A stretch of DNA of 34,209 nt. It comes from Fibrobacterota bacterium (GTDB lineage: Bacteria; Fibrobacterota; Fibrobacteria; UBA11236). Position numbers and translations under genes: made by a program. Positions within the stretch are counted from its first letter, which is position 1, and each line of letters opens with the position of its first letter. Shown here one piece after another: positions 2,896 through 24,867 of the stretch. Under the pieces are notes generated by a model, which had not been told where the DNA came from, did not search any database, and was given only the letters and a program-made list of their open reading frames with translations. The stretch is from assembly GCA_028287465.1 (NCBI GenBank), contig JAQBPO010000002.1, positions 1 to 34,209 on the forward strand, in the 5' to 3' direction.

Positions 2896-3758
2896 GCCGG
2901 GTCCCGGCCCTCGGGAAATGACAAGGGAAATGCCTGCAGGTTGACCTGGTAGACGCAGTCCTCGCCTTCATCCTGCTGGGCCATTTCCAGGATCTCCCGG
3001 CGGAATTGCTTCAAACGGTATTTAAGCTTGTCGAAACCTTGCCGTGACAGGCTCAGGGTCAGGCCCGAGAAATCCCTCTCTTCCGGACCGGCCTCCTTCA
3101 GGGTGCGTAATGCGAGCTCGCCCATGGCCAGGTGCAGATTGTTGACGAAGAGGGCCTGGATGGAATCCCCGGAGGTGATGACGGATTCGGTCAGGCGATA
3201 GCCGCGTTCGGGATCGGGTACGATCAATCCGAGCCCTTCGAGTACGCCCACGGCATGCTTGGCTTCGGCCGGCCTGATGGCGGGCCGGAGCGAACCGGCG
3301 AGTTTCTTCCAATCCCCGTCGAAGGGATGGATGCGGAGCAATTCCCGCAGGGCGGAGTAATACCATTCCTTGTAGAAGGAGTACTGGCGTTCTTCCAGGG
3401 TGCCGATTTTGATGCCGCGCAGGCGGAACAGCCTTTCGAGGAATTGGTTTTTTTCCGCGAGGGATCTGGCCTGGCCATAGAGGACGAGCGCTTCGAAGAA
3501 CTGCTGTTCCCGGGAATCGAGTCCCAGGATCCGGGCAAGCCTGCAGGCCACTTCAGGGTCAAGGTTCCTCTCCCCTTTGAAAATCCTGGATAAGGTGCCG
3601 GAGTCCAATCCCAATTTCCCTGAAATGTAACGGTAGGAAAAGAACGATTGCGCTTCTTTCCGCTCCCGATAAGCATCCCGCAGGAATTCCCGGAAGTCCA
3701 TGTATTCGAAGATCCGCGCGCTTTTCCCGGGCGCGCTTTTCCGCAGCTCGTTTTCCAT
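2892..3758 (-). CDS. TIGR02147-family putative transcriptional regulator
   Basis: This 288-residue cytoplasmic protein matches the TIGR02147 family, described as a major paralogous family of Fibrobacter and also found in Bdellovibrio relatives. The N-terminal signature is present: EYMDFREFLRDAY at about 18-30, then a Cro/XRE-like HTH (SYRYISGKLGLDSGTLSRIFKGER, about 42-65; quoted only to place it, key residues S-L-R-F-K-G), then ILGLDSREQQFFEALV. The C-terminal half is helical with no known catalytic motif. A strong Shine-Dalgarno GGTGGAGG lies 6 nt before the ATG, and a possible -10 TATATT lies 40 nt upstream. It is the first gene of an operon with the DUF2341 lipoprotein. A regulatory role is inferred from the HTH. 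Confidence 0.82.
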   Translation of the reverse strand: MENELRKSAPGKSARIFEYMDFREFLRDAYRERKEAQSFFSYRYISGKLGLDSGTLSRIFKGERNLDPEVACRLARILGLDSREQQFFEALVLYGQARSLAEKNQFLERLFRLRGIKIGTLEERQYSFYKEWYYSALRELLRIHPFDGDWKKLAGSLRPAIRPAEAKHAVGVLEGLGLIVPDPERGYRLTESVITSGDSIQALFVNNLHLAMGELALRTLKEAGPEERDFSGLTLSLSRQGFDKLKYRLKQFRREILEMAQQDEGEDCVYQVNLQAFPLSFPEGRDPA

Positions 3759-15614: not shown

Positions 15615-15630
15615 CCCTTCAATTCGCATA

Positions 15631-15651
15631 TTTCAATTTTCAATTTTCAAT
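15631..15651. repeat. three tandem TTTCAAT heptamers upstream of argD
   Basis: TTTCAAT is repeated three times without a gap (15631-15637, 15638-15644, 15645-15651), with a related TTCAATT at 15619-15625. The block is strikingly AT-rich against the surrounding sequence and ends 17 bp before the argD ATG. It could act as an UP-like element, a regulator site or merely be a heptamer repeat. Confidence 0.7.
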
Positions 15652-15668
15652 TTGCAAAGCTGGTTCCC

Positions 15669-20950: not shown

Positions 20951-21088
20951 GGCCGGCGGCTCCGGCGTCCGGCTTCGATCGGCGGGAAAGGTCCGAAGAG
21001 GCGCTTTGGGGGCATTTTACCGTACACGGCGCGCCGTGCTGGAGCCGGGGTTCCAATAATGCTAGTATTACCGTATTCCCAACGAAAT

Positions 21089-22201
21089 ATGAAGGTCATC
21101 AAGCCATTTTTCCTCGGCATGCTCGGTGGCCTGGTGCTGGGCCTGCTCCTGTTGCTGGGCCTTTATTTCACGCCCTTGCGCGAGTCCGCGTACTTCGCCG
21201 TCGATCCCGAAATGGCGGATATCCGTTCCAAACTGGACCAATACCAGGAGTGGCTGGCCCAGACCGACCTGCGCATCGCCGAACACCAGCCCGCCTCGGA
21301 CTCCCTGCAAAATGCCCAGACCAAGGCCTGGCGCGACTATAAGGGTTGGCGGAACCGCTTGGGCGAACTCGCCCGCGCCCATGCCAAACCTACGGCGGAA
21401 GGCTTCTGGCCCTGGATCTTCTCCCTCCGGAATTGGAGCCTTCCCATCGCCGTCCTGCTCGCGCTCCTGCCCGGAACCCTCTTCGCCTTGCGCGCACATG
21501 CCCTTTCCCGGACCCACCGCGCGAAGGCCCAGCCCAAAAGCGCCCGGGCCCAGGCCCTTTCCAATTTCGAAGATGCCATCAAAAAGGTCGCCCGTATTTC
21601 CGAGGCCTCGGCAGGGGCGCCCATACAGCAGTCCGTAAGGCGTGAACCGGTGCCACCCGCGGCCGCCTCGAAACGGGTTCCCATCGAACCGCCCACCGCG
21701 GTGCTGCCGATCCCGGAGTTCGCCGAAAGCCCTTCGGTTCCAACCGCGCCGGAACGCCCCACCCCAAGGGATCCGGGCCGGGAAACCGCCTTTTTGCAGA
21801 TGGGCGCTCCCTGGGGCGAGCCCGCGGGTGAGCGCATCGGGAACCCGGCCTCGATCCCTCCGGCAAAGCCCGCGCCGGATCCGTCCGCGACCGCGGATGA
21901 ATCCCGACCGCACGGCCTTTCCATGGAAGACGAGGATGCGCGGGATCCGCGTGACCCATCCGCGGGCACCCGCAAATACGCCTATGGCGACGAGGCCAAT
22001 CCCGAGCTCCCTCCCGAAGACGGCGAGGAAACCCTGGGCGTGATGCCGCCGACGACGGAAGTCGAGCGGGTTGAACGGCGGAAGGCCGAGGTCCTGAAGC
22101 TGGCCCGAAAGGGGATGACGTCTTCGGAGATTTCCCGGCGGATGAGGATCAGCCAGGATCAGGTCGAATTCATCATTCGCCTCAGGCGGGAGAAGGGGTG
22201 A
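21089..22201 (+). CDS. membrane protein with C-terminal HTH (DUF6115/DUF2802-like end)
   Basis: This 370-residue protein has two predicted membrane helices (about 6-28 and 113-134). Between them lies a charged, helical segment (EMADIRSKLDQYQEWLAQ). A long Pro/Ala/Glu-rich low-complexity region follows (about 145-325). The end (about 328-370, RRKAEVLKLARKGMTSSEISRR then QVEFIIRLRREK) is a compact helix-turn-helix like those ending DUF6115/DUF2802 proteins, which often sit near flagellar genes. The next gene downstream is FliK-like, which fits that context. ATG 21089 was chosen because it starts right before the first membrane helix; ATG 21059 is an alternative. The biochemical role is unknown. 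Confidence 0.72.
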   Translation: MKVIKPFFLGMLGGLVLGLLLLLGLYFTPLRESAYFAVDPEMADIRSKLDQYQEWLAQTDLRIAEHQPASDSLQNAQTKAWRDYKGWRNRLGELARAHAKPTAEGFWPWIFSLRNWSLPIAVLLALLPGTLFALRAHALSRTHRAKAQPKSARAQALSNFEDAIKKVARISEASAGAPIQQSVRREPVPPAAASKRVPIEPPTAVLPIPEFAESPSVPTAPERPTPRDPGRETAFLQMGAPWGEPAGERIGNPASIPPAKPAPDPSATADESRPHGLSMEDEDARDPRDPSAGTRKYAYGDEANPELPPEDGEETLGVMPPTTEVERVERRKAEVLKLARKGMTSSEISRRMRISQDQVEFIIRLRREKG

Positions 22202-22232
22202 GCTTGGGTGCGGGTCCCTGTGTCGCTGCGTC

Positions 22233-22431
22233 CGTGGGGGCGGGCGGGGGTGCCGGCTGCAAGCGAATCAGGACGATGCGGTGGGGCTGTCGGGCCTTCC
22301 GCTGCGATGTGCGTCCGTGATTCTTCCCTGTTTCGTCCCGCGGGCCACGGACTAGTCGTCTCCCTGTCGACCGCCATCGCATCGGATGGCCCCCTGCTTC
22401 GCATTCGCCGGAACCCCCGCCCGCCCCCGCG
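22233..22431. repeat. long foldback (inverted-repeat) element, ~200 nt
   Basis: Arms pair in nested order: 22233-22257 with 22407-22431 (25 nt, two mismatches, core GGGGGCGGGCGGGGGT), then GCGAATCAGG (22263-22272) with 22393-22402 (one mismatch), then CGATGCGGTGG (22274-22284) with 22374-22384 (one mismatch). Inside the remaining loop TCCGTG (22314-22319) pairs with CACGGA (22346-22351). It begins about 30 bp after the stop of the HTH membrane gene. It could be a miniature element or a structured RNA; no transposase is nearby. Confidence 0.7.
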
Positions 22432-22590
22432 GCCGCGGTTATCCCATTGGCCTGGGCCCAAGGAGCGGATCCCTTCTCACGTGTTGTAGGCTTTCGTCGG
22501 GTGGGAGTGGGTCGCGATCGCTGAGGTCGGAGGGTTGGGACATGAAGGGTGGGCGTTAGTCTGCGGGGGTGTTGTCGCAGGGGGCTGGGG

Positions 22591-22679
22591 CTTGGCTGCG
22601 GACCTTCGGGTGGGGAGAAGAGGGTTGGCGTGGCTGCGGAGGAGGATGGGGTCTTGGCTGCGGACCTTCGGGTGGGGAG
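22591..22679. repeat. 27-nt exact direct repeat, 62-nt period, G-rich
   Basis: An identical 27-nt segment (starts CTTGGCTGCGGACC, ends GGGTGGGGAG) occurs at 22591-22617 and 22653-22679. A partial third copy (TGGCTGCGGA) lies at 22631-22640. The second copy runs into GGGTGGGGAGGGTGG (22670-22684), close to a G-quadruplex pattern. Confidence 0.75.
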
Positions 22680-22801
22680 GGTGGAGAGTTGACCTAACTG
22701 CGATCGATTGTGTATCGGGTAGGCTCAAGAAACCCAAACCATGGGTGGCCTGTACCCGATGGGCCGGATTTCGGCGTTAAAGGTCCCGCTTCATTGTGCC
22801 G

Positions 22802-22836
22802 TATAATAGAATGCCCCCTTTTCCCATCCGGGGCAT
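22802..22836 (+). promoter_or_regulatory. promoter -10 and 5' leader hairpin of the FliK-like gene
   Basis: A consensus -10 TATAAT (22802-22807) lies about 38 nt before the ATG; the -35 is poor. The short leader contains a perfect inverted repeat ATGCCCC (22811-22817) / GGGGCAT (22830-22836), placed where it could act as an operator or leader hairpin. Confidence 0.5.
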
Positions 22837-22845
22837 TGAGAGCCT

Positions 22846-24867
22846 ATGGATTCCTCCGAAAATTCGATTCAGCCGATTCGGGCGGGCGCTGGCGCGGAGC
22901 GTCCCGCGGGGACCGCCGTGTTCGCCGGTACCGTAACGGGCGTGAAACGGGAGGCGGGGGTGCAGACCCTGGAGGTGCAGTATTCCCAGGGGAAGCTGCG
23001 GTTCCAGGCGGAGGGGGATTTCCAGGCCGGGGAGAAGGTTCGGCTTTCCTTTCCCGGCAATGGATCCGTGCAGGTCGAAAAGGGTCCCGTGGGCGGGGCA
23101 TCGGAGGAGATGCAGGCATCAGGCTATACCTTGCCCGGGAACATGTCCACCCTCAAGGATTTGCGGGCCTTCGAGGAGAACGTGGTTCAGTGGATGGGAT
23201 CGAAACAGGCGGGCGGCGGGACCGGGGCGGGCGCGGCGCAGGATCGCGCGGTCCAGGATCGGCAGGCCATGATGCGGTTGTCCCTTCCCCAGCTGATGAT
23301 GCAGGTGATGGGCAAGGAGGGCGGGAGGGATTTCCTGGCGCAGAACCTGCCGGCCTTGCATCCGGGAGTGGTCTCGGCATTGATCGCGGCGCTGCAGGAG
23401 ACGGACGGCGGGGATGCCGGCGCCAAGGCATCGCTCATCGATTTGCTCAAGACCTTGGGGAAGCCGCAGGAAGTGGCATCGTCCGTTCCCATGCATGCGC
23501 GCGGGGGACGGGCGGACAATCCCGGGGTGTTCATGCCCGGCGAAGCAGGGACGGGTCATGACCCTTGGTTCGGGCGCATCGTGGATAGGCGGCAAGCGGA
23601 TGATTTCCTGACGCCCCGCCAGCGGTTGCAGTTCAGCGGAACGGGGGCGCCTCCCAAGGGCGACCCGATGTTCCGCTACCTGGTGGACATGGGAGGACGC
23701 AACATGGAGGTCTTCTCTTCGCAGGCCAGGGAGCCGGGGGAGTTCGTGGACTTCGAGATGGAACGGCATGGAGGACGGATGGAGGCCCGGTTTTCCGATC
23801 CGACGGCGTCCCTGCCGGCCGGGCTCAAGACGGCCATGGCGGGATCCTCCGCGGAACTGCGCCAGGGGATGCTGCTCGCGTCGCATTTCCTCAAGGACTT
23901 CGAGGCCGAGCCGTATTACGGGAAGCTGGTCGGGGATTTCGGGGAAGTGCTTTCGCAAAGCGGCGCCATGGAAGCCAAACGGGCGGACGGGAAGACGGGG
24001 ATACCGGATCGGCAGGACCTGGATGGATTGCTGAAATTGTTCGTGGCCTATCCCCGGGATACCGATCATCCGGAACGGCAGGCCAAGGTGTGGGGCGAGG
24101 CCCTGAAGGATCCTCAGGCGATGATGCGCTTGCTCAAGACAATACGGCCCGATCAGGAGGCGGCTTTGTTGCGATCGGGCACGTCCTTGCGCTTGGCCGG
24201 CCTGGGAGGCTTTCCGGCGGATCAGGACGCCATGCTGGCCGCGGCGAAAGCGGTACTGACTGGAGAGGCTCCGGCGGCCGATACTCCCGAGGCCACGGCC
24301 GCTTGGCTGAAAAAGGCGCTCCCGTCGGCGTTCCGCGCGGAGGACCTGTTGAAGCTGGCCGGTGACGCCAACCTGGCGGCTCCCGCGGCCAAGGACCATG
24401 ACGCGGTGAAGTTCCTGATCCAGGCGGTGGCGAACGGCTTTCCCCGCGAGGACCAGATCCAGGAAGGGAAGCCTTCCCAGTTCTATTTCTACCAGGGCCA
24501 GGAATGGCGCAACCTGCAGGTGACGTGGCAGAGGGAAGGCGGAGGCGAAGGCCGCGCCAAGGCCGGGCCCAAGGCGCCCTTGCAGGTGAGGGTGGAGACC
24601 AAGGCCAAGCATATGGGCCAGGTGAACGTGGCGGTTTCCTGGGAGCCCAAGGGGGCCAAGCTGGATTTCCGGAACCAGTTCCACGATGTGCGCGACCTGC
24701 TCGGCAAATCCCTTCCGGAACTGGAAAAGAGCCTGGCGCTTTTGGATTTCAAGGTTACGGCCTGGACCTATGAAATGCTGCCCCACGATGCGCCCGGGCT
24801 CCCCGATCCCGGTTGGACGCGGCCGGCGAGCCTTTCGGACGGGGTCAATCTCGATCTGTTCGGCTGA
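22846..24867 (+). CDS. FliK-like protein (flagellar hook-length control C-terminal-like domain)
   Basis: This 673-residue protein has no signal peptide or membrane helix. The N-terminus (20-80) is beta-rich (FAGTVTGVKREAGVQTLEVQ, then GEKVRLSFPGNGSVQVEKG). The centre is long and helical. Residues ~575-650 fit the FliK C-terminal domain: PLQVRVETKAKHMGQVNVAV, then a strand pair and FHDVRDLLGKSLPELEKSLALLDFKVTAW, i.e. 'beta, LG-x-V, beta, helix of L-x2-L' (long stretch described here only by its key residues L, V, LLGKSLPEL). FliK controls flagellar hook length as an export-apparatus ruler, but no other flagellar gene is visible, so an orphan or non-flagellar role is possible. The ribosome site is weak (GAGAG). 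Confidence 0.6.
   Translation: MDSSENSIQPIRAGAGAERPAGTAVFAGTVTGVKREAGVQTLEVQYSQGKLRFQAEGDFQAGEKVRLSFPGNGSVQVEKGPVGGASEEMQASGYTLPGNMSTLKDLRAFEENVVQWMGSKQAGGGTGAGAAQDRAVQDRQAMMRLSLPQLMMQVMGKEGGRDFLAQNLPALHPGVVSALIAALQETDGGDAGAKASLIDLLKTLGKPQEVASSVPMHARGGRADNPGVFMPGEAGTGHDPWFGRIVDRRQADDFLTPRQRLQFSGTGAPPKGDPMFRYLVDMGGRNMEVFSSQAREPGEFVDFEMERHGGRMEARFSDPTASLPAGLKTAMAGSSAELRQGMLLASHFLKDFEAEPYYGKLVGDFGEVLSQSGAMEAKRADGKTGIPDRQDLDGLLKLFVAYPRDTDHPERQAKVWGEALKDPQAMMRLLKTIRPDQEAALLRSGTSLRLAGLGGFPADQDAMLAAAKAVLTGEAPAADTPEATAAWLKKALPSAFRAEDLLKLAGDANLAAPAAKDHDAVKFLIQAVANGFPREDQIQEGKPSQFYFYQGQEWRNLQVTWQREGGGEGRAKAGPKAPLQVRVETKAKHMGQVNVAVSWEPKGAKLDFRNQFHDVRDLLGKSLPELEKSLALLDFKVTAWTYEMLPHDAPGLPDPGWTRPASLSDGVNLDLFG

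Follow-up and report, generated by a model that had tools for sequence, protein, structure and literature searches.

The window, the 34,209-nucleotide stretch of Fibrobacterota DNA analyzed here, contains a foldback element of ∼213 nt at positions 22226 to 22438, in the gap between two genes carried on the same (+) strand. The upstream gene (21059 to 22201, start codon uncertain) encodes a membrane protein with a C-terminal HTH, in which the Pfam domain HTH_28 scored above cut-off. The downstream gene (22846 to 24867) is FliK-like, with a Flg_hook match below the curated cut-off. Both genes lie outside the element, and since the upstream reading frame stops at 22201 and the next begins at 22846, the foldback sits in non-coding DNA, with the flanking genes that the original prediction had assigned to it. 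An inverted-repeat search found outer arms at 22228 to 22257 and 22407 to 22436 (30 nt, 90% complementary), middle arms at 22292 to 22309 and 22375 to 22392 (18 nt, 89% complementary), and an innermost match of 8 bp. Extending the arms outward from this core gave the limits of the element, in which the helices measure ∼32 bp (outer), 18 bp (middle), and 7 bp (tip). The nested-arm architecture had been described correctly beforehand, and only the exact arm lengths and mismatch counts came out slightly different on re-measurement. RNA folding of positions 22200 to 22460 gave −160.7 kcal/mol against −126.5 ± 5.2 for shuffled sequences (z = −6.5); the reverse strand of the same segment gave a z of −5.3, and folding of 22226 to 22438 with DNA parameters gave a z of −6.6. 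The predicted long foldback, with self-complementarity above chance, was thus confirmed by the arms themselves and by folding energies far better than those of shuffles with RNA and DNA parameters alike.

All parts of the element are given on the + strand, in the orientation of a covariance model, R1, described below. R1 matched positions 22247 to 22417 with 120.7 bits (E value of 5.8e-17), a score to be read with the knowledge that R1 was built partly from this very copy, and the arm continues for another 21 bp beyond either end of the match. The 5′ arm of the outer helix (22226 to 22257) pairs with the 3′ arm (22407 to 22438), which, together with the bases just preceding it, carries GCATTCGCCGGAACCCC, matching other copies. 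Inside the outer helix is an asymmetric internal loop. Its 5′ side (22258 to 22291), which the consensus leaves unpaired, aligns with GYGAACnnCGCTGG of other copies in the same genome and has diverged at the locus, and its 3′ side (22393 to 22406) aligns with CCGCTYGTAATRCG of other copies. The two arms of the middle helix (22292 to 22309 and 22375 to 22392) show compensatory changes across copies. The tip helix, GTCCGTG at 22313 to 22319 with its partner CACGGAC at 22346 to 22352, lies within the sequence core that is best conserved across the family. A candidate 5′ foot tag, GGGTCC at 22212 to 22217, is weak and displaced outward: at this copy, 35 nt separate GGTC from the model edge on the 5′ side, against a typical 20 to 24 nt for the family forms GTGGGTCT and GTGGTCT.

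Two further features occupy the same gap. A G-rich stretch 3′ of the hairpin (22577 to 22690) contains an imperfect direct repeat of ∼43 bp, CTTGGCTGCGGACCTTCGGGTGGGGAG, and in species G005 similar units form a tandem series in the interval separating two hairpins (L102, between 938 and 1500). All six species of the genus conserve a CCGTATAAT box, a likely promoter, which in the window lies at 22795 to 22845, ∼40 nt upstream of the FliK-like gene.

As a whole-length BLAST query, the locus copy returned itself, its own arms, and weak matches only. Reading this as single-copy occurrence was misleading, because the arms diverge between copies. A sequence-blind scan for long inverted repeats across 834 kb of the same genome identified 8 with spans of 145 to 309 nt, against 0 in locally shuffled sequence, and 7 of the 8 were long and G+C-rich, a density that would correspond to ∼50 per genome. 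BLAST from one scanned copy, on contig C73, found copies on contigs C21, C87, and C74 at 69 to 72% identity and also weakly matched the right arm of the locus copy. Six copies from this genome were aligned, showing conserved internal motifs and different arms, and R1 was built from these six. Over 168 Fibrobacterota genomes, R1 detected at least 60 copies, confined to five of the six species of the genus, with 6 matches in the genome of the window, 4 in G002, 1 in G003, 40 in G004, and 16 in G005. There was no match in G001 or in 15 genomes of other genera, and 0 of the 162 Fibrobacterota genomes outside the genus had one. The blastn search proposed with the original prediction looked negative with the whole-length query, and the family emerged with a covariance model made from copies. 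R1 counts are lower bounds biased toward the subtype of the genome of the window; the foldbacks C1a, C1b, C100a, and C100b of that genome were missed by R1, so the census is a minimum. Four long foldbacks in this genome without an R1 match were seen at L041:16816-17045, L079:3537-3797, L073:4829-5137, and L073:16053-16279, the two on L073 being 88% alike over 191 nt with different outer arms. The locus foldback belongs to a previously unlisted family of long DNA palindromes that is restricted to the genus; a literature search of partial reach found no report of such repeats in Fibrobacterota.

From the outside in, family members consist of a 5′ foot tag, an arm of ∼27 to 32 bp, an internal loop, a helix of ∼18 bp, and a tip. 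The letters of the outer arm and second helix are free between copies, and the asymmetric internal loop is conserved within subtypes. The tag, GTGGGTCT or GTGGTCT, is unpaired at the 5′ foot, and GGTCT was present in 32 of 61 left flanks versus 5 of 61 mirrored right flanks. The tip is conserved as CGCCCGCG...CGCGGGC-TK-TCG with varied loop lengths. Across the six aligned copies, double changes occurred in 22 of 39 pairs, against 8.9 with shuffling and 3 to 6 with slid pairings, and 93.5% of cells were paired. Across 60 copies, double changes occurred in 38 of 39 pairs, 92.5% of cells were paired, and the covariation score reached 0.66; shuffling gave 0.17, and slid pairings did not exceed 0.16. 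The 60-copy alignment had been fitted to the structure, and the cleaner evidence comes from the six-copy result and from the outer arms, which R1 never scored and which were nevertheless Watson-Crick paired in 765 of 875 counted cells. A single copy lacking covariation and folding no better than chance, the outcome named beforehand as speaking against the element, is not what was observed.

Such strong covariation, together with the conserved internal loops and tip sequence and the positions common to several species, would suit a multicopy, large structured non-coding RNA that acts in trans or as 3′ or 5′ UTR elements. A selected RNA fold would, however, tolerate G·U and not A·C, and this was not the pattern seen. 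With a mismatch register that credits Watson-Crick pairs only, G·T and A·C mismatches numbered 10 and 18 in the outer arms, 35 and 22 in the inner helix, and 45 and 40 in both stem regions together; a separate tally over 27-bp arms gave 19 and 29. The tRNA control from the same genome, comprising four tRNAs only, gave 8 and 0. The best Rfam match was a microRNA model at 19.3 and 29.6 bits, against a gathering score of 168, and the elements show neither the curated-model match nor the tolerance of G-U over A-C that mark an Rfam structured RNA. Orientation relative to the adjacent gene was also without preference (30 copies on the same strand, 31 on the opposite one), and no promoter- or terminator-like site was found at the window copy. 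A structured RNA is therefore an unlikely identity for the family. As G·T is no commoner than A·C, the pairing is most simply explained as being kept at the DNA level.

At that level, the arms could be kept paired through recognition of the folded single strand or through template switching between them, and the G·T test fits selection on single-stranded DNA and neutral switching alike. Template switching between arms is known to repair stems, although it also acts on real RNA genes, and its intrastrand form predicts an excess of G-C over C-G and of T-A over A-T in the 5′-to-3′ sense (PMC8794818). In that sense, the arms contained 838 G-C versus 385 C-G pairs and 136 T-A versus 30 A-T pairs, in line with intrastrand switching; base composition could do the same. 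The outer arms also contained 55 C·T versus 14 G·A mismatches. As 49 of the 55 came from G004, the C·T excess there, equivalent to G·A on the complement, offers only a lead that it may be the complementary strand that folds. The predicted pair bias and the strand-neutral pattern of G·T and A·C mismatches would both be expected if the copies were neutral leftovers, old palindromes whose arms stay complementary only through template switching in replication and which no protein recognizes. SbcD, likewise, was not detected above the curated cut-off in G000 to G005 or two sister-genus genomes, which gave weak phosphatase-like matches only. But homogenization alone would erase the internal loops, foot tag, and tip, all of which are conserved, and species of the genus retain copies at the same sites, making purely neutral persistence improbable.

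None of the 61 copies lies inside a gene. The tagged foot lies no more than ∼110 nt from a stop codon or, with few exceptions, ∼30 to 280 nt upstream of a start, distances that are approximate because genes were called with a simple codon-usage script. Among the 30 solo copies with both neighbors called, 28 had the tagged foot closer to a gene than the untagged one; the untagged foot faces the remainder of the intergenic gap. Many copies lie ∼20 nt or less from a stop codon, as cis-acting transcription terminators or insulators at operon ends might. The stem-then-T-run of an intrinsic terminator is nevertheless missing from the element, with no T-run after 22438 and no terminator-like site at the locus copy, as the original prediction had held, and half of the copies precede a gene start. 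At VipB, an ordinary terminator stem and T-run sit between the stop codon and the hairpin, and the hairpin is therefore not the terminator. A function shared by neighboring genes was considered and rejected, the neighbors including T6SS, aldo-keto reductase, phosphatidyltransferase, isocitrate-type dehydrogenase, AA-kinase/GNAT, and M50 protease genes. We regard a terminator or insulator role as very improbable.

In 35 of the 61 copies, including the locus copy, a flank matched the corresponding side of a copy in another species. The orthologue of the upstream HTH membrane protein gene also adjoins an element in G004, where it and the FliK gene flank an inverted pair. The FliK gap measures 93 nt in G005 versus 648 nt in the window. 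The VipB/Hcp gap is 850 to 1,010 nt with an inverted pair in the genome of the window, G004, and G005 and ∼400 nt without the pair in G001 to G003, and the gap between the aldo-keto reductase and SpoU genes holds a solo hairpin and measures ∼490 nt in the genome of the window and G002, against ∼50 nt in G001 and G003. Given these shared positions alongside short empty gaps, the elements seem to be old insertions, some since lost, or to reflect repeated use of the same gaps. That several species carry copies at shared positions could point to a function of the site or a hotspot instead of mere descent. Flanks at the VipB/Hcp and aldo-keto reductase/SpoU gaps, inspected for target-site duplications, were strongly diverged, with blurred boundaries. 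Concerted evolution within genomes was also considered, and descent in place fits better: positional orthologues between the genome of the window and G002 were more alike than non-orthologues (0.705 versus 0.573, from two pairs only). Similarity was saturated for more distant positional pairs. Two separate observations were made at these sites. The FliK-like gene of G004 is flanked on either side by an inverted hairpin pair (L121, G004:C56:10000-20200), and in the VipB/Hcp gap of G002 (L136, ∼3146 to 3164) and G003 (L133, ∼3153 to 3171), a different palindrome, GTCGGGCGCAAAT...ATTTACGCCCGACACCCGACG, occupies the gap that holds the hairpin pair in the genome of the window, G004, and G005.

Solo copies made up 34 of the 61, and the others were arranged in inverted pairs with tags outward. 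All 14 listed pairs faced the same way, with 167 to 563 nt separating the modeled parts. Inverted pairs that bound an insertion in an intergenic gap resemble MITEs or fold-back transposons, and the hairpins could be the terminal inverted repeats of a classical MITE, a non-autonomous DNA transposon of 600 to 800 bp, with solo copies having lost one end. The uniform facing of the pairs accords with this, as do the tagged feet adjoining genes and the occupied gaps, which exceed empty ones by 440 to 700 nt. However, each end is itself a complete hairpin, most copies are solo, and no common sequence was found among the centers of different pairs, nor any conserved 3′ tail among copies, the tails failing to align. 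The family thus lacks the conserved terminal inverted repeats and homologous interior of a MITE; its arms are the most variable part, though MITE ends are normally the conserved part bound by the transposase, and neither an autonomous partner nor any transposon with such ends was found. A classical MITE accordingly seems a poor candidate.

ERIC and YPAL are intergenic palindromic repeats of more than 100 bp that occur in many copies, are confined to lineages, and are known by their conserved sequence. The Fibrobacterota family resembles them in size, intergenic position, palindromy, copy number, and confinement to a lineage, but its arms are rewritten between copies while the pairing is kept. 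REPs are dispersed palindromes of 20 to 40 bp, tagged with GTAG or CGTC and arranged in inverted dimers (PMC3733652), and TnpAREP processes them as single-stranded DNA (PMC8266576). The likeness to REP, BIME, and REPIN elements extends to intergenic dispersal, an unpaired foot tag, the solo and inverted-dimer layout, internal mismatches, and single-strand folding. The differences are that the Fibrobacterota hairpins, at ∼200 nt (193 to 309 nt in the scan), are five to ten times longer, that their tag, GTGGGTCT or GTGGTCT, is GGTCT-like instead of GTAG or CGTC, that their sequence is far more variable than their structure, and that the carriers are without RAYT/TnpAREP (Y1_Tnp). The Y1 transposase (PF01797) was absent from every carrier (the genome of the window and G002 to G005) and its sole occurrence was in G001, a genome that R1 does not match. 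The family is extragenic, dispersed, and arranged in inverted dimers as REP/BIME elements are, and departs from them in length, tag sequence, and Y1 transposase. Reverse transcriptase (PF00078) occurred only in G005 among the genomes examined, which does not fit a retron, group II intron, or DGR. Integron attC sites are imperfect palindromes recognized as folded single-stranded DNA, with structure conserved over sequence (PMC2727003). Greater conservation of structure than of sequence is common to the Fibrobacterota hairpins, as a working analogy only, but these are longer and lie outside cassette arrays, and their identified neighbors are housekeeping genes.

Of the MITE, REP/BIME-type element, and structured RNA originally offered for the locus, a dispersed palindromic repeat was right in kind, because there are many intergenic copies, inverted pairs, and a tag at one foot; structured RNA and a standard MITE are disfavored, and a standard REP does not fit. 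We consider it probable that the feature is a copy of a REP/BIME-like DNA repeat, a long palindrome dispersed between the genes of a single Fibrobacterota genus, inserted into gaps ancestrally, folding as a single strand, and keeping its arms complementary. Copies would have entered gene gaps in ancestors of the genus long ago, and the hairpin would form in single-stranded DNA during replication or repair. The inserting factor might recognize the tag, internal loop, and tip, as occurs with REP, IS200/IS605, or attC hairpins, and arm complementarity may be kept by template switching between arms, by selection for recognition, or by both. More speculatively, the family may represent a new class of structure-recognized single-stranded DNA element, defined by its shape, foot tag, and tip motif and with sequence free to drift, that is spread by a recombinase or kept at gene edges for chromosome biology.

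Covariation is usually read as proof of a functional RNA, and here at least 60 natural copies covary densely without a G-U preference, which is the expected look of hairpin maintenance at the DNA level. The REP/BIME-like repeats described here offer a clean test set for template switching versus single-stranded DNA recognition, and they bring to a little-studied phylum a family of large palindromic repeats that lacks the transposase by which REPs are accounted for elsewhere. Apart from these hairpins, A/T-rich repeats with CAATTTGCAAA units were observed as an inverted repeat at L078:12423-12567 and as a 14-nt tandem array at positions 15618 to 15658 of the window, and they possibly constitute one small repeat family.
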